A DNA stretch of 64,000 nt, from NCBI RefSeq assembly GCF_012584445.1, contig NZ_JABAHI010000008.1, forward strand, positions 1,178,001 to 1,242,000, read 5' to 3'. This DNA comes from Olsenella sp. KGMB02461. GTDB lineage: Bacteria > Actinomycetota > Coriobacteriia > Coriobacteriales > Atopobiaceae. The translations under genes were made by a program, and so were the position numbers. This document shows positions 14,026-26,751 of this stretch, in pieces. The number at the start of each line of letters is the position of its first letter. The stretch's first letter is position 1. Below the pieces are notes generated by a model, which did not search any database, was not told the origin of the DNA, and saw nothing but the letters and a program-made list of their open reading frames with translations.

Positions 14026-15999
14026 CTAGCCTTGAGGAGCTTCCAGCGCATCCACTTGAGCAAGCCAGAGGGTGGCAGAGGCATCGGAAGGCATGCGCAG
14101 ATCCCCGCGAGGAGAGACGGCCACAGAACCCACCTTGGGGCCGTCGGGCAGGCAGGAGCGCTTGAACTGCTGAGCGAAGAAGCGCTGGTAGAAGGTGCGA
14201 ATCCAGCGCAGGATGGTGGCAGGGTCATAGAGAGGCTCTTGGCCCTGGGCGCGAGGCTGCTCCACAAAGGCCGCCAGTGCCAGTTGGTAGATCTTGGCAG
14301 GGCTGAAGCACTGGCGCAACATGGAGTAGAGGAAGAAGTCGTGGAGCTCGTAGGGGCCCACCAGATCCTCGGTGACCTGGGCGATGGAGCCGTCCTCTTG
14401 AGCAGGCAAGAGCTCGGGCGAGACCGGGGTGTCCAGCACGTCGAGGAGCACCTCTGCGAGCCGGGGATTGTCACAGGTAGCAGCCACATGGCGCACCAGA
14501 TGGCGCACCAGCGTCTTGGGCACGCCGGAGTTCACCCCATACATGGACATGTGGTCGCCGTTGTAGGTGGCCCAACCCAAGGCCAGCTCGGACAGGTCGC
14601 CGGTGCCAATGACCAAGCCGCCGCGCTGGTTGGCCAGGTCCATGAGGATCTGGGTGCGCTCCCGGGCCTGGGAGTTCTCGTAGGTGACGTCGTGGGTGGC
14701 CTCGTTATGGCCGATGTCTTGGAAGTGTTGGCGCACTGCGGCGGCGATGGGCACTTCTAAAAGCTGGGCGCCCAAGGCCTCGGCGAGAGTGCGGGCGTTG
14801 GAGTGGGTGCGGTGGGTGGTGCCAAAGCCCGGCATGGTGGCAGCGAGGATGCCGCCTCTATCGAGGCCGCAATAGTCAAAAGCGCGAGCACATACCAGCA
14901 GCGCCAGGGTGGAGTCCAAGCCGCCGGAAACCCCCACCACCGCGCATTTGGCGTGGGTGTGGGCCAGGCGCTGGGCCAAGCCGCGCGCCTGGATGTCCAG
15001 GATGTCCTCGCAGCGCTGGCTGCGGGTGGCAGGGTCGTCGGGCACGAAGGGATGGGGATCCACCCAACCGGTCACTTGCTCGTCGGCAGGGTCGAAGCTC
15101 TCCGGCAGCGACGTGCGAGTGTAGCCGGCGGCTTCAGGAGAGGCGCTGGTGCGATAGGTGGACATGCGCCGGCGCTCGCTGGCCACATATTCCAAATCCA
15201 CCTGCCCCAGGGCGACGCCGCCTCCAAAGGGCTGGGCCTCGGCCATGATGCGGCCGTCTTGGCATACCAGGTCATGGCCCGAGAAGACCACGTCCTGGGT
15301 GGACTCGCCCCAGCCGGAGCTGGCATAGCCGTAGGCGCACACCAAGCGGGCGCTCTGGCCTCGCACCAAGTCGCGCCGGTAGGCCGCCTTGCCTACCTGG
15401 GCGTTGGAGGCCGAAAGGTTGCAGATGAGCGTGGCGCCGGCCTTGGCCAGGCCAATGGAGGGAGGCTCTGGGACCCATAGGTCCTCGCAGATCTCCACAC
15501 CCACACAAAAGTGCTCCATAACAGGGGCTTCAAAGACTTGATGGGCGCCAAAGGGCACATTCCAGCGGCCAGCCACAGAAATGGGAGTGCACTCCACAGG
15601 ACCTGGCTCAAAGTAGCGGCCCTCATAAAACTCGTTATAAGTGGGGATGTGCAGCTTGGGCACCACGCCCAAAAGCTCGCCGGCACAGCAGACGGCCGCC
15701 ACATTGTAAAGCTTGGAGTTCACCCGCAAAGGCAGCCCTACCACCGAGAGGCATCCGAGCTCTGCGGTGCGCTCGATATAGGAGGCCAGGCCCTTCTCGG
15801 CAGCGACCAGAAGGGCGTCCTGCCAAAAGAGGTCGTTGCAGGCGTAAGCGGTGAGAACGCACTCGGGAAGGATGACCACTCGGGCCCCATGGGCCACAGC
15901 GCTTTTGGTTTCCTCGACGCAGGCGACCACGTTAAAGTCTACGTCACCCACGTGGACCGCGGGAGTCACCGCAGCGACGGTGGTGAGGCCAAGCTTCAT
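14026..15999 (-). CDS. nadE: Glutamine-dependent NAD+ synthetase
   Basis: A 657-residue, two-domain enzyme making NAD+ from nicotinic acid adenine dinucleotide, ATP and glutamine. The N-terminal nitrilase-type amidase has the full catalytic triad Glu46 (LPECVLT), Lys115 (PKLHIP) and Cys171 (EICEDLW), which releases ammonia. The C-terminal synthetase has the PP-loop SGGLDS at 358-363 and downstream GTGDLSELALGWATYNGDH. The start at 15999 has AGAGAGGAG 5 nt upstream. A much longer open frame running to 16521 overlaps the amidohydrolase gene out of frame and is rejected. The length is normal for the Gln-dependent class. Confidence 0.95.
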   Translation of the reverse strand: MKLGLTTVAAVTPAVHVGDVDFNVVACVEETKSAVAHGARVVILPECVLTAYACNDLFWQDALLVAAEKGLASYIERTAELGCLSVVGLPLRVNSKLYNVAAVCCAGELLGVVPKLHIPTYNEFYEGRYFEPGPVECTPISVAGRWNVPFGAHQVFEAPVMEHFCVGVEICEDLWVPEPPSIGLAKAGATLICNLSASNAQVGKAAYRRDLVRGQSARLVCAYGYASSGWGESTQDVVFSGHDLVCQDGRIMAEAQPFGGGVALGQVDLEYVASERRRMSTYRTSASPEAAGYTRTSLPESFDPADEQVTGWVDPHPFVPDDPATRSQRCEDILDIQARGLAQRLAHTHAKCAVVGVSGGLDSTLALLVCARAFDYCGLDRGGILAATMPGFGTTHRTHSNARTLAEALGAQLLEVPIAAAVRQHFQDIGHNEATHDVTYENSQARERTQILMDLANQRGGLVIGTGDLSELALGWATYNGDHMSMYGVNSGVPKTLVRHLVRHVAATCDNPRLAEVLLDVLDTPVSPELLPAQEDGSIAQVTEDLVGPYELHDFFLYSMLRQCFSPAKIYQLALAAFVEQPRAQGQEPLYDPATILRWIRTFYQRFFAQQFKRSCLPDGPKVGSVAVSPRGDLRMPSDASATLWLAQVDALEAPQG

Positions 16000-16123
16000 G
16001 GAGTGCTCCTCTCTAAGGGGGCTGGCTAGAGGGCGGCGTGCGGCAGGGACGCTAGGGGTAAACGGGCCGAGCTGGGCCTTCCTCAACGACCGAAGCAGCG
16101 TCGCCGCCCGGCGCCCCCGCTCT

Positions 16124-17752
16124 TCAAGCGGTTTCATAGACCTTGTTCCCACCCACATAACAGGCGAGCACCTGCGCCTGATGAAGCTCCTGGGGCGGAC
16201 AGGACAGGGGGTTCTTGTCGATGACGATGAGGTCGGCAAACTTGCCAGGCTCAAGGGTCCCCAGCTCATCCTGACGGCCCACCGCCACGGCGCCGCCCAG
16301 CGTGGCGGCGCGCAGGGCCTCGGCGGCGGTGACGCGCTCTTCTGGCAGCCAGCCGCCCATGGGGGCGCCGGAAGCGTCCTGGCGGGTGACCGCATCTGCC
16401 AGGATGGCGGCCGGGTCGCAGGGAACGCAGGGGGAATCGGTGCCAAAGGCCATGTCCACGCCGGATTTGAGGTAGGTCTTGAAAGGCCACATGAAGGAGA
16501 CGCGCTCCTCGCCCAGGTCACGGGCCGGCTGGGTGATGTCGATGACCACGTGTTGCGGCTGCACCGAGGCCACGATCTTTGCCGCAGCCATGCGGTCCAC
16601 GTCGTCGCGCTCCAAGTTCTCGATATGCTCTAGACAAAAGCGCCCCTGATGAGGTTGCCCGTACTTATCGGCAGCCTCTTCAAAAATGGAAACGCCCTCA
16701 TGGACCGCTGCGTCGCCTATGGCATGAATGCGCACGGCAATGCCCTCTTTGGCGGCGCCCAGCACGATGTCGCGCATCTGGGCAGGCGGGATGGCGGGGT
16801 GGCCGCGATCGCCGGGGAAGCGAGGGTTCTCATAGGGCTCCAAGAGCCAGGCGGTGTGGGCGCTGGAGACGCCGTCGAAGAACTGCTTGACGCCTGGCGC
16901 ACGCAGCATGGGGCCGGTGAGCTCTGCTTGGAGCTTTTCAATGCGGTCAAGGTCGCCGTCCAGCGGCAGCGTGGGGAACAGATGGCCGCGCACGGTGAGC
17001 TCGCCTGAAGCTTCCAGATCACGCCAGACCTCGTCTAATACGGCGTCACAGCCCGGAATTGCCGATAAGCCCATGTCGTCCACACTGGTGATGCCTCGGC
17101 GGTTGAGCTCGTGGGTCCAGTCGAGGAATATCTGGCGCAGCTCTTCTTTGGAGAGGGACTCCAGCACTCGGGCGATGTAGTACATGCCGGCGCCCTCGCG
17201 AAGGACGCCGGTGAGCCGGCCTTCCTCGTCGCGGTCAAAGGAGCCGCCGGCGGGAGGCTGGGTGCTCTCGTCGATGCCCAGGTGCTTAAGGCCGCAGGTA
17301 TTGAGCCAGAGAGTATGGGAGTCGCCGGAGTACATGGCCACCGGTCGATTGGGGAAGAGCGCATCGAGCGACAAGCGAGTGGGCGGGATGGCCGGATCCC
17401 ACAGCATGTCGCGCCAGCCATGGGAAAGCGCCCAGGAGCCATAAGGCTGGTCTTTGGCAAAGTCATACATGTGCTGGGCGCAGTCTGCCTCAGAGGCGCC
17501 GCAGTACTCCATGGCCCGAGCCGATGGATAGAGCGCCGAATGGAACACATGTTGATGTGCGTCATGGAGACCGGCGCAGATGAAGGCGTCCTCATAGTCT
17601 TCTACCAGGGTGTCTTTTGCAATAAAGGCATCCATCTCCTGAGGCGGCACCACCGCCGAGATGATGTCTCCCTCTATGACCACCGCGGCAGGATAGCTGC
17701 GATCGTGAGTGCCGTCGAACACGTGGCGCGACGTGATAATCCTAGATGCCAT
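16124..17752 (-). CDS. Metal-dependent amidohydrolase (YtcJ-like)
   Basis: A 542-residue member of the amidohydrolase superfamily. It has the HxH metal pair in GLHDAHQHVFH, a later histidine in IHAIGDAAVHEG, FCLEHIENL and the metal aspartate region MAFGTDSPCVPCDP, followed by the beta-sandwich end (GTLEPGKFADLIVID). These features match the YtcJ group, which removes acyl groups or cleaves cyclic amides; the exact substrate is unknown. It lies directly downstream of the amino-acid ABC transporter genes on the same strand (98-nt gap), so a peptide- or amide-derived substrate brought in by that transporter is possible. Confidence 0.8.
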   Translation of the reverse strand: MASRIITSRHVFDGTHDRSYPAAVVIEGDIISAVVPPQEMDAFIAKDTLVEDYEDAFICAGLHDAHQHVFHSALYPSARAMEYCGASEADCAQHMYDFAKDQPYGSWALSHGWRDMLWDPAIPPTRLSLDALFPNRPVAMYSGDSHTLWLNTCGLKHLGIDESTQPPAGGSFDRDEEGRLTGVLREGAGMYYIARVLESLSKEELRQIFLDWTHELNRRGITSVDDMGLSAIPGCDAVLDEVWRDLEASGELTVRGHLFPTLPLDGDLDRIEKLQAELTGPMLRAPGVKQFFDGVSSAHTAWLLEPYENPRFPGDRGHPAIPPAQMRDIVLGAAKEGIAVRIHAIGDAAVHEGVSIFEEAADKYGQPHQGRFCLEHIENLERDDVDRMAAAKIVASVQPQHVVIDITQPARDLGEERVSFMWPFKTYLKSGVDMAFGTDSPCVPCDPAAILADAVTRQDASGAPMGGWLPEERVTAAEALRAATLGGAVAVGRQDELGTLEPGKFADLIVIDKNPLSCPPQELHQAQVLACYVGGNKVYETA

Positions 17753-17850
17753 GGGCTCAATCTCCCTTGGATGAAACCGGCTCTAGCTGAGGATACCACG
17801 CCCCTCTGATGGGCTTTTGTGCTGTGAGGACTGCACGAGGTGCAATGCGG

Positions 17851-18648
17851 CTACTCTTCGCTCTTGTCGTCCAGGTAGCGCGAGAGAAATTCCCGGGTGC
17901 GTGCATGCTGTGGATTGCCAAAGATCTGTTGGGGCGTGCCTTGCTCGGCGATGACTCCTTGGTCCATGAAGACCACGCGGTCGCTCACGTTCTTGGCGAA
18001 GGCCATCTCATGGGTGACCACCACCATGGTCATGCCGCCGGCCGCCAGCTCGCGCATGACGCCCAGCACCTCGCCCACGATCTCAGGGTCCAGGGCGCTG
18101 GTGGGCTCGTCGAAGAGCATGATGGCCGGGTCCATGCACAGGGCGCGGGCGATGGCCACGCGCTGCTTTTGTCCGCCGGAGAGGCGCTTGGAATCGGCGC
18201 CGATGAAGTCCTGGAGCCCTACGGCTTCCAGGTGGCGGCGGGCGATCTTCTCGGCTTCCGGCTTTTTGAGCTTGCCCAGAGTCACCGGGGCCAACGTGCA
18301 GTTATCCAGCACGTTGAGGTTGTTGAAGAGGTTGAAGGACTGGAAGACCATGCCGATGTCGGCGCGGAGGGCGTTGACGTCGGTGGCCGGGTTGGTGAGG
18401 TCTTCTCCGCGAAAGTAGACATGGCCGGCGTTGGGGGTCTCCAGCAGATTGAGGCAGCGCAAGAGGGTGGACTTGCCCGAGCCCGAGGCGCCGATGATGG
18501 TGACCACTTCGCCGGGGTAGACGTCCAGGTCGATGCCCTTGAGCACCTCGTGGGCCCCAAAGGACTTGCGCAGCCCCTGGACGGAGATGAGGGGCTCAGA
18601 TGTAGAGGCGAAAGCCTGGGAGGCAGGCGCAGAAGTGTCCGTAGTCAT
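17851..18648 (-). CDS. Polar amino-acid ABC transporter, ATP-binding protein
   Basis: A 265-residue ATPase that powers amino-acid import. It has Walker [11 protein letters not shown]-loop MVFQSFNLF, signature [15 protein letters not shown], Walker [14 protein letters not shown] and the switch histidine in VVTHEM, all in the GlnQ/HisP order. ATG 18648 is chosen because AAAAAGGA lies 6 nt upstream; an ATG two codons earlier abuts the ribosome site. It begins 11 nt after the permease stop, so the order binding protein, permease, ATPase forms one operon on the minus strand. Confidence 0.93.
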
Positions 18649-18659
18649 GATCATTCCTT

Positions 18660-19922
18660 TTAGGACTGCATGGGCTGGGCGGGGTGGCGAGGAGCAGCGG
18701 CGGGATCGGTGGTGGAACCCACGGGACCAGGCGCCTCGACGTCAAGACGAGCGGCCAGCATGGTAAGGATCTTGGAGAACAGCATGGTGAGGATGAGGTA
18801 GATCACCGCGGCGATGCAGTAGGCTTCGAGACCCTTGTAGTAGATGCCTATGACCGAGGTGGTGGCAAACATCAGGTCGAAGACGCCGATGATGGACAGC
18901 ACCGAGGAATCCTTGATGTTCACGATGAGCTCGTTGGACAGGGCGGGGATGGAGTTCTTGACGCCCTGGGGGAAGACCACCTTGCGCATGGCTTGCCACT
19001 GGGAAAGGCCCAGGGAGCGCGCTGCCTCCAGCTGGCCAGGATCCACTGCTTCGATGCCGCCGCGCAGCACCTCCATCATATAGGCCGTGGAGTTGAGGCT
19101 GATGGTCACAAGGCCGGCCCAGAAGGGCGACCACACCGCGTTGATGTGGGCCGTCTCCCAGCCCAGGGAGCGAAAGACCGCCAGGCCGGCGAAGTAGACG
19201 ATGGCGCCCTGGACCATCATGGGCGTGCCGCGCACCACGGTGGAATAGAAGCGCGCAAAACCCGAGCCCAGCGTCTTGAAGAAGCGCACCGCGTCGTTCT
19301 CGCCGCGATCGGGTGTCTGGATGCGCAGAAAGACCATGAGCAGTGCCAGGAAGAAGGCGATGACCGTGCCAAAGAGCGCCAGCTCGATGGTGGTGGTGAC
19401 GCCGGTGACAAACAGCTGGCGGCCGTTATAGAGCATGTAGACGGCGCTCTCCAAAAAGCCCGTGGGATTGGTGGAGCTGGCGATGGCCCCTTGGCAAAGG
19501 GCCACAAAATGAGAGATGGGGCCCAGGCAAAAGAGCGCTGCCGAGCAGATCCACACCAGGTAGCTGGCGTAGCGCAGAGGTGCCCTAAGCGACGCCTTGG
19601 CCAGGACGAAGCGGGAGCGATACCTCTTGCGCAGCACAGCCTTGGCCACCAGGGCCACCAGCGAGAGGGCCAGCCAGACCACACATACCAGGGTGAGGAC
19701 GGAGCCGGCGGCGCCCAGCGACATGCCGGCGCAGCAGGCCAGCGAGAAAGCAGCCAGCGCGCTGGTTCCCAAAAGCACATAGGGATGGTCGCTCTTGAGG
19801 AAGTGGGCTAGACGACGCAGGGTGCCGGCGTCTTCTGGCAGCGGCTCGGCATAAGGGTGGAGGTTTTCTTCCTCTTCCACTACAGCTTCTTCCAGCTGGG
19901 GATCGGGTACTCCAAGGGCCAT
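18660..19922 (-). CDS. Polar amino-acid ABC transporter permease with N-terminal membrane extension
   Basis: A 420-residue inner-membrane permease. The C-terminal 220 residues are a HisM/GlnP-type domain, beginning [19 protein letters not shown], and carry the EAA coupling loop [29 protein letters not shown]. Unlike the usual 220-residue permeases, this one has a 190-residue N-terminal part with an acidic start (VVEEEENL) and about four extra hydrophobic helices. A TATAAAGGAG site precedes ATG 19922. It follows the binding-protein gene across an intercistronic hairpin. Confidence 0.88.
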
Positions 19923-20001
19923 AATCGCTCCTTTATAAATGGCGATGGAGCGCCAGATGCACAAGGGAGGCATCCGGCGCTCGCAAGAAACAGAGTGCGC
20001 T

Positions 20002-20032
20002 AAGGCATAGGGCGCCCGAGGCGCTGTGCCTT
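20002..20032 (-). terminator. Intercistronic hairpin after the first binding-protein gene
   Basis: AAGGCA (20002-20007) and TGCCTT (20027-20032), with inner GGCGCC/GGCGC pairing, form a stem that overlaps the binding-protein stop codon and precedes the permease gene. Such hairpins often stabilise the upstream message or reduce read-through, which would give more binding protein than permease. Confidence 0.5.
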
Positions 20033-20951
20033 AAGCGGGCTGACGGTCGCAGGCAGCCGTCCAGATCTCCTGACGCTCAGCGTCGGAGATGGCGTTGACA
20101 GCCTCGTTCACTGCCTGAGCGTTGGCGTAGTCCTTGGTGTAGCCCACCGAGGCAGGGTTGGTGGTCTCAAAGCCAGCGCCCTCGGCAAACTGGATGGGCA
20201 CCAAGTTGGAATTGGAGCGCATGTAGCCCTCCTCGTTCATCTTGGGATAGGTGACCGCATCCACGGCGCCCTGAGCCAGCTGAGCCAGCACGGCAGGCAT
20301 GGTGTCCACGGGAGTGGCGTGGTTGACGCCCTCGATCTCCTCGATGCAGTCATCGTAGAGGGTGGCCTTTTGACCCATGACCGTGGCGCCGGCGAAGTCC
20401 TTGAGGCTGGTGGCGTTCTCGTAGGGAGAGCCCTGGGTCACAAAGATGCCGATGGTGTCCTCGATGTAAGGGTCGGAGAAGTCGATGGACTGGCGGCGCT
20501 CCTCGGTATCGCTCATGCCGGCGATAATCACGTCGATCTGGCCGTTGTTAAGGGCGTCGATAAGGCCGTCGAAGGAGAGCTTCACGGCCACAGGCTCGGC
20601 GCCAAGGGCCTCTGCCACACGCTTGGCGATCTGGACGTCGTAGCCGTCTGCATAGGCGCCGGAGACGTTCTCTATGGGGATGGTGTATTCGCTCTCCTGG
20701 GTGGCCTGCCAGTTATAGGGGGCATAGGCAGCTTCCATGCCTACGCGCAAAGTGGAGCCGCTCTCTTGCTCTGAGGCCTGGGCGTCAGGAGCCCCGGCGT
20801 TTGTGCTGCCGCAGCCGGCAAGGGCCGCCAGAGAGCCCAGGGCCACCAACGAGCCGCCTGCCTGGAAGAGCGAGCGACGGGAAACCGAGCGCTTGAGCAG
20901 CCCGCCTGTGGCGGTCGACTGCTGCACCTGAGGGGTGTTCTGGTCATTCAT
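20031..20951 (-). CDS. Amino-acid ABC transporter substrate-binding lipoprotein (copy 1)
   Basis: A 306-residue periplasmic-type binding protein of the polar amino-acid family (SBP_bac_3). The signal sequence has an RR pair (SVSRRSLFQAGG) followed by a lipobox LAGC at about residue 47, so it looks like a Tat-compatible lipoprotein. LRVGMEAAYAPYNW opens the mature fold and IDVIIAGMSDTEERRQSIDFSDPY is the family hinge. The first 134 codons and 20 bp of upstream DNA match copy 2 (22808-23731) almost base for base. It is the first gene of the operon with permease and ATPase. Confidence 0.92.
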   Translation of the reverse strand: MNDQNTPQVQQSTATGGLLKRSVSRRSLFQAGGSLVALGSLAALAGCGSTNAGAPDAQASEQESGSTLRVGMEAAYAPYNWQATQESEYTIPIENVSGAYADGYDVQIAKRVAEALGAEPVAVKLSFDGLIDALNNGQIDVIIAGMSDTEERRQSIDFSDPYIEDTIGIFVTQGSPYENATSLKDFAGATVMGQKATLYDDCIEEIEGVNHATPVDTMPAVLAQLAQGAVDAVTYPKMNEEGYMRSNSNLVPIQFAEGAGFETTNPASVGYTKDYANAQAVNEAVNAISDAERQEIWTAACDRQPA

Positions 20952-20971
20952 GGCTGCTCCTTTGCATCCAA
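20551..20971 (-). repeat. 421-bp near-identical block, copy A (5' part of binding-protein gene 1)
   Basis: Matches 23331-23751 at a constant offset of 2780 bp with a single difference by my reading (C at 20912, A at 23692). Identity stops abruptly at both ends: 20 bp upstream of the start codon, and inside the ligand-binding domain. Confidence 0.9.
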
Positions 20972-21326
20972 ATCTCGCGAACCCTTATGTTCGCTGGTGG
21001 GCTTACAGATTAGGGGAAAGACGAACCTGCAGGTAGAACCCACTGCAGACCTTTACTGCATAGAAACACTATGCATCCGTAACTTTATGCATCATAGGGC
21101 GGATAGGGCAAAAACTCGGTATAACACCAGGTAGATGCTCTATTTCTATGCATACAAACGTGAATTAGAGGGGTTTTGAAGGGGTCTTATTCGTCAAATA
21201 ATACGCCCTATTTTGAGGTCTGTTTGTATAACCGCAGGTAGAATAGGTACCTGCTTCTTCTCCTTTCGATACATCACCGTATGAGAGCCTCTTTCCTGTA
21301 TAGAAGCTGTAAATAAGCTGCAAGCC
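20972..21326. other. Upstream region of binding-protein gene 1
   Basis: An AT-richer 355-bp spacer without a gene. It carries a TGCATAG/CTATGCA palindrome at 21057-21075, a GCATCATAG variant near 21090 and an inverted copy TTTCTATGCATA at about 21143-21154. The promoter of the transporter operon must lie here or nearby. Confidence 0.5.
21057..21075. promoter_or_regulatory. Palindromic operator candidate, site 1
   Basis: TGCATAG at 21057-21063 and CTATGCA at 21069-21075 are perfect inverted 7-mers around AAACA. The half-site GCATAGAAA recurs inverted near 21143 and again upstream of binding-protein gene 2, so it is a likely repressor or activator site shared by the two genes. It loosely resembles ArgR boxes, but the spacing differs, so the regulator is not assigned. 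Confidence 0.45.
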
Positions 21327-22805
21327 TCAGGACGGCGCCCCACAGCAGCAACCAGTGACCAAATCGCGCAGAAAGGCCACCCCTTGCGCAAAGGCAGCAG
21401 AAAGGATGCGCTCGTTGGTGCCATGGACTCCCCGCGCGATCTCTGCCTCGTCGCCCACAAATGCCGAGAAACGCAAACACTGGTCGCAGCAGCCCTCATA
21501 CATCCGGGCATCGCTCGCTCCTGTAGCCAACGTAGGCACCAGAGGGATAGGCGTGCCGTCGAGCTCGCAGAAGAGCGAAGCTGCCGCTTGGCGCAGCTGG
21601 TCTACGCCCCACCCGTCTTCTAAAGACACGCAGGAAGGATCATTGGCCCCCTCCATAAGGGTCACCTGGACATCCAGATCTGCCACGAGAGCTCTTACCT
21701 GGGCCACGAGGCCTGCCACCGAGTCGCCCGGAAGCAGCCGGAAATTAATGGCTGCGCCCATATCCTGGGGCAACACATTGGGGGCCGAGGAACCGCCCTC
21801 CATCATGGTAGGCGCCGCTGTAGTGCATACCAGCGGATAGGTCTCAGGATCGCGAGCCAAAAGCTCTGCCAACGCCTGGCCGCACGCCTCGACGCGCGTT
21901 GGATCCCCTTGGAGCAGCTCCCCAATAGGCCCTCTGGCGATCCGCGGCGCCAGCTGGCGAAACATAGCTGCTACCGGCGCAGTAAGCCGAGGTTGGCCCA
22001 TCTCGCGGCACACTCGCGTCACCGCTTCGCAAAGCCGCCCCAGCGACGTGCCGCGCGCCGGATTTGACGAATGCCCCCCTTCCGAGCGCGCAGAAAGCCA
22101 CAGGTCGGCATAGCCCTTCTCGGCAATGGCCACCCCCATCCAATGGCCGCTGCCGCCCAGAGAGGCCAGGTCGTGAATGAGATAGTCGCCCTCGTCCACC
22201 AAGAACGCCGGATGTATGCCACGCTCCTCTAAGCGCGCCGCCAATGCCCGCGCGCCCTCTTGGAGGCATTCCTCATCATGGCCCAGCGCCGCGATGACGC
22301 CTCGCTCCAGGGGAGCCCCGCTGCCAAGCACCTGCCCCAAGGCTTCGAAAATGCCCGCCAGCTGCACTTTCATATCGATGGCGCCGCGTCCCCAAATCCA
22401 GGTGCCGTCGGCCGTGCCCGCGAAGGGGCCGTAGGCCCAATGATCCTGGGTGCCCGGCACGCAGGGCACCACGTCTTGATGGGCCATCAACACCAAGGGC
22501 GCCAGCCGCGGGTTGTCCCCGGGAATTTCCAGAAGCATGGCCTGGGGGCCGCCGCCGGCCGCACCCTCCACCAGCTCTACCGACGCAGCCGAAAACACCT
22601 GAGGATAGGCAGCCTCAAGCCACGCCCGCTGGGCCTCGAAGGCGCTCCAGTCACCGGTGCGGTAGGCCTGCGCCGCCAGAGTGGGAAAGGACAGCAGCTG
22701 CGCCAACCGCCTGTCCGCCTCCGGATCTGTCGCTCCCCCGTTCAAGGGCCCAAAGAAGCCGAGAATATCCTGGCCGCCTGGCAGCGGCTCTCCCAGGGTC
22801 CCCAT
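21327..22805 (-). CDS. M20-family metallopeptidase (carboxypeptidase/aminoacylase type)
   Basis: A 492-residue zinc exopeptidase or deacylase. LVLMAHQDVVP carries the first metal His and Asp, WGRGAIDMK the bridging Asp, and GHDEECLQEG the catalytic Glu pair. A dimerisation insert with SEGGHSS follows. Length and motifs fit the Pm20d1/Cps1 group, which acts on N-acyl amino acids or dipeptides. The start at 22805 is 2 nt after the stop of binding-protein gene 2, so they form a two-gene operon. This suggests that the second binding protein delivers substrate whose products this enzyme handles. No signal peptide is present, so it is cytosolic. Confidence 0.85.
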   Translation of the reverse strand: MGTLGEPLPGGQDILGFFGPLNGGATDPEADRRLAQLLSFPTLAAQAYRTGDWSAFEAQRAWLEAAYPQVFSAASVELVEGAAGGGPQAMLLEIPGDNPRLAPLVLMAHQDVVPCVPGTQDHWAYGPFAGTADGTWIWGRGAIDMKVQLAGIFEALGQVLGSGAPLERGVIAALGHDEECLQEGARALAARLEERGIHPAFLVDEGDYLIHDLASLGGSGHWMGVAIAEKGYADLWLSARSEGGHSSNPARGTSLGRLCEAVTRVCREMGQPRLTAPVAAMFRQLAPRIARGPIGELLQGDPTRVEACGQALAELLARDPETYPLVCTTAAPTMMEGGSSAPNVLPQDMGAAINFRLLPGDSVAGLVAQVRALVADLDVQVTLMEGANDPSCVSLEDGWGVDQLRQAAASLFCELDGTPIPLVPTLATGASDARMYEGCCDQCLRFSAFVGDEAEIARGVHGTNERILSAAFAQGVAFLRDLVTGCCCGAPS

Positions 22806-22807
22806 GG

Positions 22808-23731
22808 CTACTCCGGCTGACGCTCGAGGGCGCCGTCCCAAAGCTCTTGGCGTTCGGCATCCGAGAGGTTCGCCAGCGCGCTGTTGATGGCCAACAAAAC
22901 CTCATCGTTGCCTTTGGAGACTCCCACTGCGGCAGTGACCACATCGGGAAAGCCCTCGCCCTCCGCAAAACGCACCGGCACGATGCCCGGATTGCTCTTG
23001 AGGTAGGCGGCCTCGTTCTCCATGTTGTAGGTGGCGGCGTCTGCGGCGCCCTGCTGAAGGGCTGCCAGCACATTGGGCACAGAGGGCAGCGGCGTCATAT
23101 GGACCACACCAGGTATCTCATCGATCACCTCGTCGAGCTTGGTGCCCTTTTGTCCCACCACCGACGCTCCCGAGAGGTCTGCCAGGCTGGTGGCGTCTTG
23201 GTAGGGCGACCCCTCGCGCACGAACAGGCCGTAGGTGCCTTCGAAGTAAGGGTCGGAGAAGTCGATGGACTGCCGCCTTTCCTCTGTGGGGGCCATCCCC
23301 GCGATAATCACATCGATTTGGTTGGAAGCCAGGGCGTCGATAAGGCCGTCGAAGGAGAGCTTCACGGCCACAGGCTCGGCGCCAAGGGCCTCTGCCACAC
23401 GCTTGGCGATCTGGACGTCGTAGCCGTCTGCATAGGCGCCGGAGACGTTCTCTATGGGGATGGTGTATTCGCTCTCCTGGGTGGCCTGCCAGTTATAGGG
23501 GGCATAGGCAGCTTCCATGCCTACGCGCAAAGTGGAGCCGCTCTCTTGCTCTGAGGCCTGGGCGTCAGGAGCCCCGGCGTTTGTGCTGCCGCAGCCGGCA
23601 AGGGCCGCCAGAGAGCCCAGGGCCACCAACGAGCCGCCTGCCTGGAAGAGCGAGCGACGGGAAACCGAGCGCTTGAGCAGCCCGCCTGTGGAGGTCGACT
23701 GCTGCACCTGAGGGGTGTTCTGGTCATTCAT
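22808..23731 (-). CDS. Amino-acid ABC transporter substrate-binding lipoprotein (copy 2)
   Basis: A 307-residue binding protein, identical to copy 1 except for one residue over the first 134 (signal RR pair, lipobox LAGC, LRVGMEAAYAPYNW). From IDALASNQIDVIIAGMAPTEE onward it diverges: the second lobe differs in most positions (for example GTYGLFVREGSPYQ against DTIGIFVTQGSPYE). Ligand preference therefore probably differs while export and docking surfaces are shared. No permease or ATPase gene follows, so it presumably feeds the transporter encoded at 17.8-19.9 kb. It is cotranscribed with the M20 peptidase. Confidence 0.92.
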   Translation of the reverse strand: MNDQNTPQVQQSTSTGGLLKRSVSRRSLFQAGGSLVALGSLAALAGCGSTNAGAPDAQASEQESGSTLRVGMEAAYAPYNWQATQESEYTIPIENVSGAYADGYDVQIAKRVAEALGAEPVAVKLSFDGLIDALASNQIDVIIAGMAPTEERRQSIDFSDPYFEGTYGLFVREGSPYQDATSLADLSGASVVGQKGTKLDEVIDEIPGVVHMTPLPSVPNVLAALQQGAADAATYNMENEAAYLKSNPGIVPVRFAEGEGFPDVVTAAVGVSKGNDEVLLAINSALANLSDAERQELWDGALERQPE

Positions 23732-23751
23732 GGCTGCTCCTTTGCATCCAA
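23331..23751 (-). repeat. 421-bp near-identical block, copy B (5' part of binding-protein gene 2)
   Basis: Partner of 20551-20971 (offset 2780 bp, one mismatch). It covers the ribosome binding site, the signal sequence and the first 134 codons, and ends sharply. Confidence 0.9.
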
Positions 23752-24382
23752 TAGCGAAGAGGCCCCATGGCCTCCCGATCTGCAACCCCAAAGCGCCCGA
23801 GACGCACCCTTGAGGCAGGAGCGCACCCCTCTGTAGCTTTGGGTTGGAAGAATCCTAGACAGAATCGACCAGCGGTAGGAAAGGAGCGGCAAAAGTGTTA
23901 TTGCATAGAAATACTATTCAGCCTGATTGCTATGCACTCTGGGGCGCATAGGGGTGTTTATTGGCATTTTCGCAGATATCACCCATTATCTTGCTGTATA
24001 TGAGAGCTATTTCCTGGGGATTGCCTCCTTTAATATGCGTGTTTTGATACGAGATTTAGCGATAACTATGTATACATCCTGGTAACAGCGTTATTAATTT
24101 CACTCTCTTCTGCAATACTGTGCATACTTTATTTCTAATTATTTCTCGGGATTTCTGTGAGCATTCTCATCGCAGCGTGGTTTCGCCTCAAATAGATCGC
24201 ATCTCTTGCAATCTCATGCACCTTGACCACCAGGAATTTCCTCTAACTGACATGACAACCCACCGCACACCGATAGAGAGCCCCTTTGTCTTTTGGGGTT
24301 TGCAAAACGCGGGACAGAGTTGCGTTTTTGGGGGAATATCATCGCAGGAAGAGTCTATTGATCCATCTACTAAGGAGCCGCC
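23732..24382. other. AT-rich divergent promoter region between binding-protein gene 2 and the EIIA gene
   Basis: No gene seen in this 651-bp spacer. It holds the TGCATAG operator candidate at 23902-23920. Further AT-rich DNA from 23980 to 24200 contains several TATAAT-like words, which must include the promoters of both divergent transcripts. I could not fix a unique -35/-10 pair. Confidence 0.45.
23902..23920. promoter_or_regulatory. Palindromic operator candidate, site 2
   Basis: TGCATAG (23902-23908) and CTATTCA (23914-23920) with the same 5-bp spacing as site 1, and a further GCTATGCA at 23930-23937. The context TTGCATAGAAATACTATTCA differs from site 1 at only a few positions, although the surrounding spacers are otherwise unrelated. 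Confidence 0.45.
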
Positions 24383-24919
24383 ATGGGCCTGCTTGACCAC
24401 ATTTTTCCCAGCACTGACGAGCCAAAAGCTGAGGATTTCACCCCTGTCGAGGCTGTCGCCAACCCCAACACCATAACGGCTCCTGTGACCGGCGCCGTCA
24501 TCAACCGCATCGACGTCGAAAGCGACGTGTTCGCTCAAGGCCTGCTGGGACGCGGTTGCGGCATCCGTCCCCAGGAAGACGTCATCTATGCTCCCGCCAA
24601 CGGCACCGTCACCGTGCAGTATGCCGGTTCCCGCCACGCCTTTGGCATGGCGAGCGACGGCGGCGCGCAGATCGTCGTGCATGTAGGCCTGGGCACCGTG
24701 GCCATGGAAGGCAAGGGCTTTACCTACCTGGTGCACCAGGGAGACAGCGTAAAGGCCGGCCAACCCGTGCTCGCCTTCTCCCGCGAGGCCATCACCGAGG
24801 CTGGCTACGACCCCATCGTAACCATCGCCATCGTGAACAGCGACGACTTCTCCCGCATCGAACTGGTGCAGCAGGGCCACGTGGATGCTGGCCAGATCCT
24901 GTTTGAGCTGGAGAACTAA
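24383..24919 (+). CDS. PTS glucose-family EIIA component (stand-alone)
   Basis: A 178-residue cytosolic phosphocarrier of the glucose-type phosphotransferase system. ITAPVTGAVINRI opens the domain, SRHAFGMASDGGAQIVVHVGLGTV contains the two conserved histidines (the second in VHVG is the phospho-acceptor), and QPVLAFSREAI follows. Most homologues read HVGIDTV; here Ile-Asp is replaced by Leu-Gly. AAGGAG precedes the ATG. It is monocistronic between its own promoter region and a strong terminator, so it probably serves EIIBC proteins encoded elsewhere and may act as a regulatory EIIA. Confidence 0.9.
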   Translation: MGLLDHIFPSTDEPKAEDFTPVEAVANPNTITAPVTGAVINRIDVESDVFAQGLLGRGCGIRPQEDVIYAPANGTVTVQYAGSRHAFGMASDGGAQIVVHVGLGTVAMEGKGFTYLVHQGDSVKAGQPVLAFSREAITEAGYDPIVTIAIVNSDDFSRIELVQQGHVDAGQILFELEN

Positions 24920-24956
24920 GGCACATAAGCTGCGCATGCTCAGTGCTGATAATATC

Positions 24957-25000
24957 AAATGCTCCATTAGCTACGTTTAGTTGTAGCTAATGGAGCATTT
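24957..25000 (+). terminator. Strong terminator after the EIIA gene
   Basis: An 18-bp perfect stem (AAATGCTCCATTAGCTAC / GTAGCTAATGGAGCATTT) with an 8-nt loop, followed by TATT. The A-rich 5' flank means it could also work on the minus strand, ending any transcript that runs through ricT. Confidence 0.85.
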
Positions 25001-25107
25001 TATTAGAGGGCAAGAAGAATTTATTTTGGAACCCTCGTGATCATTTCGCTCGCCTTTGATCGGGTGCGTCCAATGGATCGAGACTCAAGGACCGGCCATC
25101 TTACCTG

Positions 25108-26751
25108 CTACTGGCTAGAGTCTCCGCCTGCTGTCCCTTCTCCTCCGCCTCTCGACGTACGGCGGCGACGGCGACGTTGCTTGGAAGTCTCCTTCTTGGG
25201 ACCGGAGGCTTTGGTTCCGGCTTTGCTGCTCGCCTCCTGTCCAGATGCGCGGCCGTTCTTAGACCCAGATGTACCACCTGCGACCCCAGGCTTGCCGCCC
25301 TTGCGGCTGCCGCTGTTGCTGCCGCTGTTGCCGCTTTTGTGGGAAGGGATGCTCTTCTCGGCAGCGGGACGATCGTTCGCGAACCGAGGAGCGCCATCGC
25401 TGGCAGCTGCGGCAGCATCGGCCTGGCGGCGGCGCCTCTGGGCTCGGCCGGGACGCACGTCTACCAGGGGCGTGCCCGAACTCTCCTCGCGCGGGGCGGC
25501 TTGGGACGCGGCAGCGGCAGGAGCGCTGTCGGTGGCGTCGTGATGGCGGCGGCGACGGCGGGTGGGCTGGGGCGCGGCGGCTTCGGGACGGTCGCCGATG
25601 TCGCGCGGCTTGCGGCGGGAGTCGCGCTTGGAGCCTGCGCGGTTGTCGCGAGCAGCCTCGCGGCGAGCCTCCTTCTTGGCCTTTGCTTCGCGGGCGGCCT
25701 CACGGGCAGCCTTTTCTTCCTTTTGCTCGGCCACCTGGGCGCGGCGATGGGCGCGGCGGCTCTCGCTCACAAAGACCACGTCGGAGCTGTCGTAGTCCAA
25801 GACCTCGCCGGCCTCGGTGCGGTCAAGCTCGGCCAGAGCCATCTGCACCTCGGGAGAGTCCAGAGCGTCCAGCATGGCGCGGGTCACGGTGTCGGGGCGG
25901 CAGGAGCAGCCGTTGGTCTCGGCCTTCTTGCAGGCCGCCTCGGAGCACTCCATGCCCTCCAGGGGCACCTTGATGGTTTTGCCGTTTTCCAGACGCAGGG
26001 TAAGGCCCTCGCGAGGGGTGTCGTAGTCCACGATCTTGGCGGTACCCAACGGTGTTTGGATGAGGGCGTTTTTCTTGGGGGCACGGCTCTTGAAGTCGCG
26101 ATAAGCCTCGAACTCATAGCGCAGGCAGCACATGAGGCGGCCGCACACGCCGCTGATCTTGGGGCTGTTTAAGGGCAGGTCCTGCTCTTTGGCCATGCGG
26201 ATGGACACCGGCTCGAACTTGCGTTCCCAGCGTGCGCAGCAAAGCTCCTGGCCGCAGCCAGCGTAGCCGCCCATGAGGGCGGCTTCTTCTCGGACGCCGA
26301 TCTGGCGCATATCGATGCGCTCATGGAGGGCCCGAGAGAGCTCGCGCACCAGGTGGCGAAAGTCCACGCGGTCGTCGGCGGCAAAGTAGCACACGCAGCG
26401 CTCGCCGCCAAAGAGATACTCCACGCCCACCGGCTTCATGGGCAGGCCTTCCTCCTTGGCCAGGGCGCGAAAGACGGGCAGCGCCTCGTCGCCTTTGGCG
26501 GCCAGCTCGGCGGCGCGGTCGTGGTCTTGTTCGGTGGCCACGCGGATGACCGGGGCAAACTCGGCCTCGCCGATGGTCTCCTCCAACTCCTCTTGGGTGA
26601 CCTCGAAGGGATCGGCGACGGCAAGACCCATCTCGGTGCCGCGACCAGTCTCGCAGATCACGTGGTCGCCGGCGCAAGCGCCGGAGTCGCGGGGATCAAA
26701 CCACAAATCATGTTGCACAAAGGTGAATCTCACCGGTAGGACATGGGGCAT
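25108..26751 (-). CDS. ricT: PSP1-domain protein RicT (YaaT) with a long basic disordered tail
   Basis: A 547-residue protein. Residues 1-290 match RicT/YaaT: the PSP1 core and the cysteine motifs GCGQELCC and CGRLMCC, which in the Bacillus RicAFT complex help hold Fe-S clusters that promote RNase Y-dependent mRNA maturation. From about residue 330 on, the protein is a low-complexity, Arg/Lys/Ala/Ser-rich tail of over 200 residues ending RRRRRRTSRGGGEG, absent from the roughly 275-residue Bacillus protein and suited to RNA binding. It overlaps the end of holB by 22 nt, and the tmk-holB-ricT order is conserved in many Gram-positive bacteria. Confidence 0.85.
   Translation of the reverse strand: MPHVLPVRFTFVQHDLWFDPRDSGACAGDHVICETGRGTEMGLAVADPFEVTQEELEETIGEAEFAPVIRVATEQDHDRAAELAAKGDEALPVFRALAKEEGLPMKPVGVEYLFGGERCVCYFAADDRVDFRHLVRELSRALHERIDMRQIGVREEAALMGGYAGCGQELCCARWERKFEPVSIRMAKEQDLPLNSPKISGVCGRLMCCLRYEFEAYRDFKSRAPKKNALIQTPLGTAKIVDYDTPREGLTLRLENGKTIKVPLEGMECSEAACKKAETNGCSCRPDTVTRAMLDALDSPEVQMALAELDRTEAGEVLDYDSSDVVFVSESRRAHRRAQVAEQKEEKAAREAAREAKAKKEARREAARDNRAGSKRDSRRKPRDIGDRPEAAAPQPTRRRRRHHDATDSAPAAAASQAAPREESSGTPLVDVRPGRAQRRRRQADAAAAASDGAPRFANDRPAAEKSIPSHKSGNSGSNSGSRKGGKPGVAGGTSGSKNGRASGQEASSKAGTKASGPKKETSKQRRRRRRTSRGGGEGTAGGDSSQ

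Follow-up and report, generated by a model that had tools for sequence, protein, structure and literature searches.

Evidence for recurrent gene conversion confined to the 5' part of a tandem pair of ABC transporter binding-protein genes in Olsenella

The two genes coding for substrate-binding proteins that lie beside a single amino-acid-type permease and ATPase in Olsenella sp. KGMB02461 have very probably undergone recurrent gene conversion confined to their 5' part, a form of concerted evolution in which this part is almost identical between the two genes of a genome and differs between species. On the evidence of alignments and trees, the 3' parts are two old classes of binding protein which are common with another genus and older than the present sequence of the shared block.

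The host genome comprises 2.19 Mb in 13 contigs, and the window (the whole 64-kb stretch of DNA that was analysed) lies on a contig of 1.53 Mb. The nearest named relatives of its binding proteins belong to the Coriobacteriales (NCBI lineage checked in two species; Atopobiaceae, Kribbibacteriaceae). All genes of the locus (Table 1) are encoded on the reverse strand in the order binding protein 2, M20 peptidase, binding protein 1, permease, ATPase and amidohydrolase, with the binding protein 1 gene at the head of the run of binding protein, permease and ATPase. The SBP_bac_3 binding protein, the BPD_transp_1 permease and the ABC ATPase have Pfam matches above gathering scores, as parts of a PAAT-type amino-acid ABC importer, and the NCBIfam matches of these subunits are to amino-acid transporter models at scores below the curated cut-offs. 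The M20 peptidase is more likely to start at the ATG of codon 13 (22805), which lies right behind the stop codon of binding protein 2, and of the 17 other loci examined, 7 likewise have the amidohydrolase next to their transporter genes. In the permease, approximately 160-210 residues precede the matched domain (Pfam 215-394 of 421 residues; NCBIfam models from about 162-174), and an N-terminal extension of such length seems unusual for the family. No known RNA elements were found at gathering scores in 15500-26500, and promoter and terminator scans of 17500-25100 gave results at or below chance.

Table 1. Coordinates of genes, shared block and upstream motifs, as positions of the window.
Feature	Position	Strand	Basis or remark
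Homogenised block, copy 1 (ribosome binding site, signal peptide, linker, start of lobe 1)	20551..20971	-	Identity and site patterns
Homogenised block, copy 2	23331..23751	-	Identity and site patterns
Codon 134 of copy 1, block end	20550..20552	-	First class-specific residue is 135
Binding protein 1 (SBP_bac_3, 306 aa)	20031..20951	-	Pfam; called a lipoprotein from signal and Cys47
Binding protein 2 (SBP_bac_3, 307 aa)	22808..23731	-	M20 peptidase gene directly after
M20 family peptidase	21327..22841	-	Listed from a TTG start; Pfam/NCBIfam
Amino-acid-type ABC permease (BPD_transp_1)	18660..19925	-	Pfam/NCBIfam
ABC ATPase	17851..18654	-	Pfam/NCBIfam
Amidohydrolase (Amidohydro_3)	16124..17752	-	Pfam
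16-base motif ATAGTGTTTCTATGCA upstream of gene 1	21057..21072	-	BLAST E 0.012
Matching motif upstream of gene 2, 15/16	23902..23917	-	BLAST E 0.012

The shared block extends from 20 bases upstream of the ATG, with the ribosome binding site inside it, to the second base of codon 134, and over these 421 bases the two copies (offset 2780) differ at a single position (20912, which is 23692 in copy 2), giving Ala14 in copy 1 and Ser14 in copy 2. At the flanking bases (20550, 20972 and their neighbours) the copies mismatch immediately, and from codon 135 on they differ at 193 of 516 aligned bases (37%). The initial annotation had described a block of this length with one mismatch and sharp divergence beyond it, had taken the ribosome binding site, the signal and the first codons to be the same DNA in both genes, and had argued that uniform duplication could not yield such a border; our data bear out the description, and the argument was right. 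The block is the sole repeat of at least 60 bases in the window (repeat search with a seed), and chance as the source of its identity is out of the question. A third donor copy elsewhere in the genome was considered and rejected, as a search of the genome with the block gave two matches, both of them the known copies.

A second species of the same genus (genome G001, a single contig; its copies are S1 and S2, those of the window W1 and W2) carries the pair at the same spacing of 2780 bases, with block borders that match those of the window to within 3 bases. Over the aligned codons 1-134, border codons included, W1 and W2 differ at 2/402 bases and S1 and S2 at 3/402, whereas 34-36 of the 402 (8.5-9%) differ between the species. 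The 3' parts are arranged the other way round, with 193/516 differences between W1 and W2 and 203/516 between S1 and S2, but only 22/516 between W1 and S1 and 17/519 between W2 and S2, so that copy 1 to copy 1 and copy 2 to copy 2 they are 96-97% identical between species. Independent duplication in each species would have left the 3' parts non-orthologous, and the opposite is seen. The longest exact run shared between copies is 361 and 398 bases in the two species.

Site patterns, scored over -120 to +819 in the two pairs, place the same borders on a finer scale. Thirty-three sites group by species, all of them inside the block (+43 to +365), and 206 group by copy (70 upstream and 136 downstream, none between -20 and +400), although the 70 upstream sites compare stretches that are unlike between the copies and so mark the border rather than provide a homologous contrast. 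No site follows the third pattern, and 36 sites are otherwise variable, 3 of them in the block. The copies still differ at one site between -20 and +400 in the window and at none between -20 and +397 in G001, which makes the last exchange in each recent relative to the species split. Third codon positions account for 24 of the 33 species-grouping sites, and the identity within each genome is therefore not a matter of protein constraint. Of the 33, 18 are clustered in the 60 bases of the linker that follows the lipobox (20745-20804; codons 50-69 in copy 1), both copies having changed together.

Phylogenetic and synonymous-site comparisons agree with these patterns. The AU test rejected the copy-by-copy tree for codons 1-134 (log-likelihood difference 217) and the species-by-species tree for codons 135 to the end (log-likelihood difference 620), and trees of 55 sequences are in accordance with the site patterns for the window and G001. 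Synonymous divergence between the copies, which the initial annotation had suggested comparing inside and outside the block in an alignment with relatives, is 0.010 in the block and 1.07 outside it in the window, and 0.020 and 1.60 in G001; in both species the synonymous differences of the block sit in the border codons. Without exchange since the species split, approximately 34 copy differences would be expected in the window, where 1 was observed (Poisson P about 6e-14). The duplication predates the split of the window species, G001 and the lineage of a second genus (genome G022), because the 3' parts are orthologous and group by copy in all three, and the block was homogenised in both species after their separation, since every one of the 33 changes had to be passed to the second copy as well. 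Within the block, paralogues of one genome are closer to each other than orthologues of different species, the duplication is older than the species split and homogenisation has recurred in separate lineages, which is the pattern of concerted evolution. The gene conversion of the 5' part that was originally proposed is strongly supported by these results and, as it occurred in both species since the split, it was not a single event. The strong pattern is present in two genomes only. Between species the synonymous divergence of the block (0.29) is somewhat above that of neighbouring genes (0.04-0.19) and of the 3' parts (0.13-0.21), which simple conversion does not predict and which could be explained by small numbers or by block sequence having been imported from an external source. 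In G001 the M20 gene (L069:9399-10910, reverse strand) is interrupted by one in-frame stop, at codon 150 of 504, and apart from this is approximately 96% identical to that of the window; it is either a decaying gene or affected by a sequencing error.

A search with protein 1 gave matches at E 1e-30 or better in 29 of 60 genomes, and a search with protein 2 gave matches at 1e-60 or better in 102 of 140 genomes of the family (own genome included in both), 95 of them with one match and 7 with several. Three of these seven (the window, G001 and G022) have the pair with an M20 gene between the copies; G008, G035 and G068 have two copies each on separate contigs, and G062 carries a tandem pair of another make-up along with a third copy outside it. 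This G062 pair (L111, contig C169, 1872-2819 and 5692-6600) involves the same family of binding proteins and is of independent origin; its copies flank a large predicted membrane protein and show no homogenised block (longest exact run 29).

The block copies of G022 differ by 21% and have a longest exact run of 33 bases, and exchange has probably ended there. Past exchange in this lineage is suggested by trees of codons 1-134, in which the G022 copies group together (support 0.91-0.99), and is weakly contradicted by trees of codons 67-134, in which G022 copy 1 joins the window and G001 (support 0.73 for DNA, none for protein); AU tests on the placement kept the alternatives (0.065-0.066 for codons 1-134; no resolution for codons 70-134). 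As a clue to which copy was the donor, the window agrees with G022 copy 1 at 8 and with copy 2 at 2 of the 11 positions of codons 67-134 where the G022 copies differ, but since many of these states are also common to Kribbibacterium, the differences look like changes private to G022 copy 2. The window, G001 and G022 have 52 class-diagnostic residues in common, all at 135 or later, and the lack of a class-specific residue within the block is partly true by construction. In Kribbibacterium absianum (G003), a lone binding-protein copy accompanies a permease and an ATPase (L071 / L036), and the 15 kb inspected there contain no match to the M20 or amidohydrolase genes; copy 2 may have disappeared jointly with the two hydrolases. 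Trees place the 3' part of this lone copy with copy 1 (support 0.99-1.00), although of the 52 diagnostic residues 27 are as in copy 1, 12 as in copy 2 and 13 as in neither. The order binding protein, permease, ATPase and M20 occurs in 7 of the 17 other loci (two of the seven in one genome), so that the M20 peptidase seems to be part of the system and to have moved in the lineage of the pair.

Repeated unequal crossing over between sister chromosomes, which would give three copies or one until a later exchange restores two with their blocks alike, requires the same homology as gene conversion and leads to the same end state, and direct repeats 2.8 kb apart should be a fair substrate for it. Every cycle must, however, pass through a triplicated or deleted state and then return, while both 3' parts, the intervening M20 gene and the spacing of 2780 bases have been kept in two species, and we regard this route as unlikely. 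A domain swap, in which an existing 5' part was fused to a different ligand-binding part to build a new binding protein, would produce sharp borders by a single fusion, and with borders coinciding to 3 bases in both species one early event may have set them. Yet a single old event cannot leave the copies alike within each species and differing at 33 sites between the species, which refutes a swap as the sole cause, and the 3' parts of the two copies are homologous over their whole length, with the two classes occurring in another genus next to a diverged 5' part; a swap is very unlikely to account for the pair.

The structure model of protein 1 (mean pLDDT 81.6; residues 1-63 below 50) has the two-lobed fold of binding proteins, with amino-acid binding proteins as its best matches (4i62, Z 24.5, rmsd 3.4 over 228 residues), and in this model the block takes in the signal and linker together with the initial 70 or so residues of lobe 1, ending in helix 127-135. 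From the layout of the fold we take the strands that cross between the lobes to be 163-172 and 264-271. Lobe 1 of the model then extends beyond the block, the border of which lies approximately 30 residues before crossing strand 163-172. An exchange of the second lobe to create a new specificity, which the initial annotation had offered as the other possibility, is not supported, because the border is in the helix of lobe 1 and the 3' parts are orthologous across genera.

Identical repeats beyond short-read length can collapse, but two separate assemblies (one of them a single contig) show the same structure with different block sequences and the window, on a contig 1.53 Mb long, retains its one mismatch; an assembly error is unlikely to lie behind the identity, and it is highly improbable that reads of one block overwrote the other during assembly or polishing. 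Purifying selection on the DNA or RNA of the 5' part without exchange, for which the functional ribosome binding site and signal peptide might speak, is refuted by the 33 sites, 24 of them at third positions, which differ between sister species in both copies together, and has almost no probability left.

Most of the residues predicted to set binding lie in the 3' parts, which have differed since before the species split. In a sequence alignment with LAO (ArgT), positions E73, Y76 and F127 in the block are the same in both copies, as are 144, 145, 152 and some others outside it, and the copies differ at 147 (Ser in copy 1/Ala in copy 2), 198 (Leu/Lys), 199 (Tyr/Leu) and 236 (Pro/Asn), where the states are kept by class in the window, G001 and G022. 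We take these aligned sites to be pocket positions of LAO, helped by the PDB titles of its D11A, S72A and Q122A mutants. In LAO, R77 binds the ligand carboxylate and D161 the alpha-amino group. R152 is invariant in 18 aligned proteins, and at the position of D161 copy 1 has Pro and copy 2 Asn. Because neither copy has the Asp that contacts the alpha-amino group in LAO, the ligand may be something other than a free amino acid and, given the adjoining M20 peptidase and amidohydrolase, our guess would be an N-acyl amino acid or a small peptide.

Two paralogous binding proteins stand beside one permease and ATPase in the gene order of three genomes, and the next permease match in the host genome is 38% identical over residues 184-387 of 421 (about half the length). 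As judged from gene order and sequence searches, one permease and ATPase likely serve both binding proteins, which fits the suggestion of the initial annotation that one transporter may accept two cargos. The 16-base motif found upstream of each gene (Table 1) may be a shared operator; part of it, TGCATAGAAATA, recurs inverted further upstream of gene 1.

We propose that the two binding proteins now adjoining a single permease and ATPase arose by an old duplication. Within the genus to which the window belongs, the two direct copies, separated by 2.78 kb, would then undergo homologous recombination that repeatedly copies the 5' 0.4 kb from gene to gene, presumably as non-reciprocal conversion by the cell's own recombination, and the 5' part would thereby evolve as one sequence within each genome. 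The spread of a tract would be blocked by flanks that are too different for strand exchange on both sides, and a tract reaching past codon 134 would overwrite residues that define the two classes. The border is presumably held by selection as well as by loss of homology, and its agreement to 3 bases is as expected if an earlier exchange set the borders and later ones were limited to the stretch that still matched. Both proteins presumably dock to the one permease, and the two classes would bind different ligands. That conversion is itself favoured by selection, as a means of keeping two binding proteins that compete for one transporter matched in their translation start, export signal and permease-facing beginning of lobe 1, with the ligand-specific rest shielded from it, is a suggestion we make tentatively and with considerable doubt. 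If true, sequence evolution by itself would be enough to reveal, through the block, which part of a binding protein docks, and the same division would be expected in other pairs that share a transporter. The pair offers a clean bacterial case in which exchange and divergence operate within the same two genes and meet at borders no more than a few bases wide. As a natural experiment, it could show which part of a binding protein has to be kept matched with the permease and which sets specificity. It also calls for caution, as the 5' parts of paired binding proteins may mislead trees and annotation.

Each of the E. coli pairs HisJ/ArgT, LivJ/LivK and ArtJ/ArtI shares its transporter. By annotation these are, as here, related binding-protein pairs beside one set of permease and ATPase (HisQMP, LivHMGF and ArtQMP, respectively), and for the His pair the annotation names the sharing. 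Our comparison with other tandem pairs covered four, the G062 pair and these three, and in hisJ/argT, livJ/livK and artI/artJ there is no homogenised block, the longest exact runs being 14, 26 and 14 bases compared to 361 and 398 here. ArtJ and ArtI are described as sharing one transporter (PMC6640053), and in Pseudomonas aeruginosa several binding proteins, DppA1-A5, are described as setting the substrates of one ABC transporter, DppBCDF (PMC4206461), which is a peptide transporter unlike the amino-acid-type system of the window. A genome-wide study of prokaryotes reports recurrent concerted evolution of 26 genes, and the term 'ABC transporter' does not occur in its main text. Among the matches listed for the open-licence literature, titles and the starts of abstracts contain no report of gene conversion between binding-protein genes. 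The tuf pair of Salmonella encodes the same protein, whereas the pair of the window represents two classes. The tuf genes are among the closest known systems (PMC5485169). In the tandem paralogues TLR1 and TLR6 of mammals, gene conversion is reported to have homogenised one part independently in each species, at borders that almost coincide, with the other part evolving by orthology, and the authors propose shared partners as the cause (PMC2077338). Those are animal receptors compared in nine species, with the homogenised region toward the C-terminus, whereas here the N-terminal part of bacterial binding proteins is concerned, in two species. In methanogens, the operon duplicates mtrA-1 and mtrA-2 are reported to have one domain homogenised within species and the rest differing (PMC4632066), as tested by the same kind of tree comparison as used for the pair of the window, but they are archaeal methyltransferase subunits that gained different membrane domains by fusion, over a far longer time span. 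Homogenisation of part of a gene is thus a known process, as TLR1/TLR6 and mtrA illustrate, and the binding-protein pair of the window is a new case of it.
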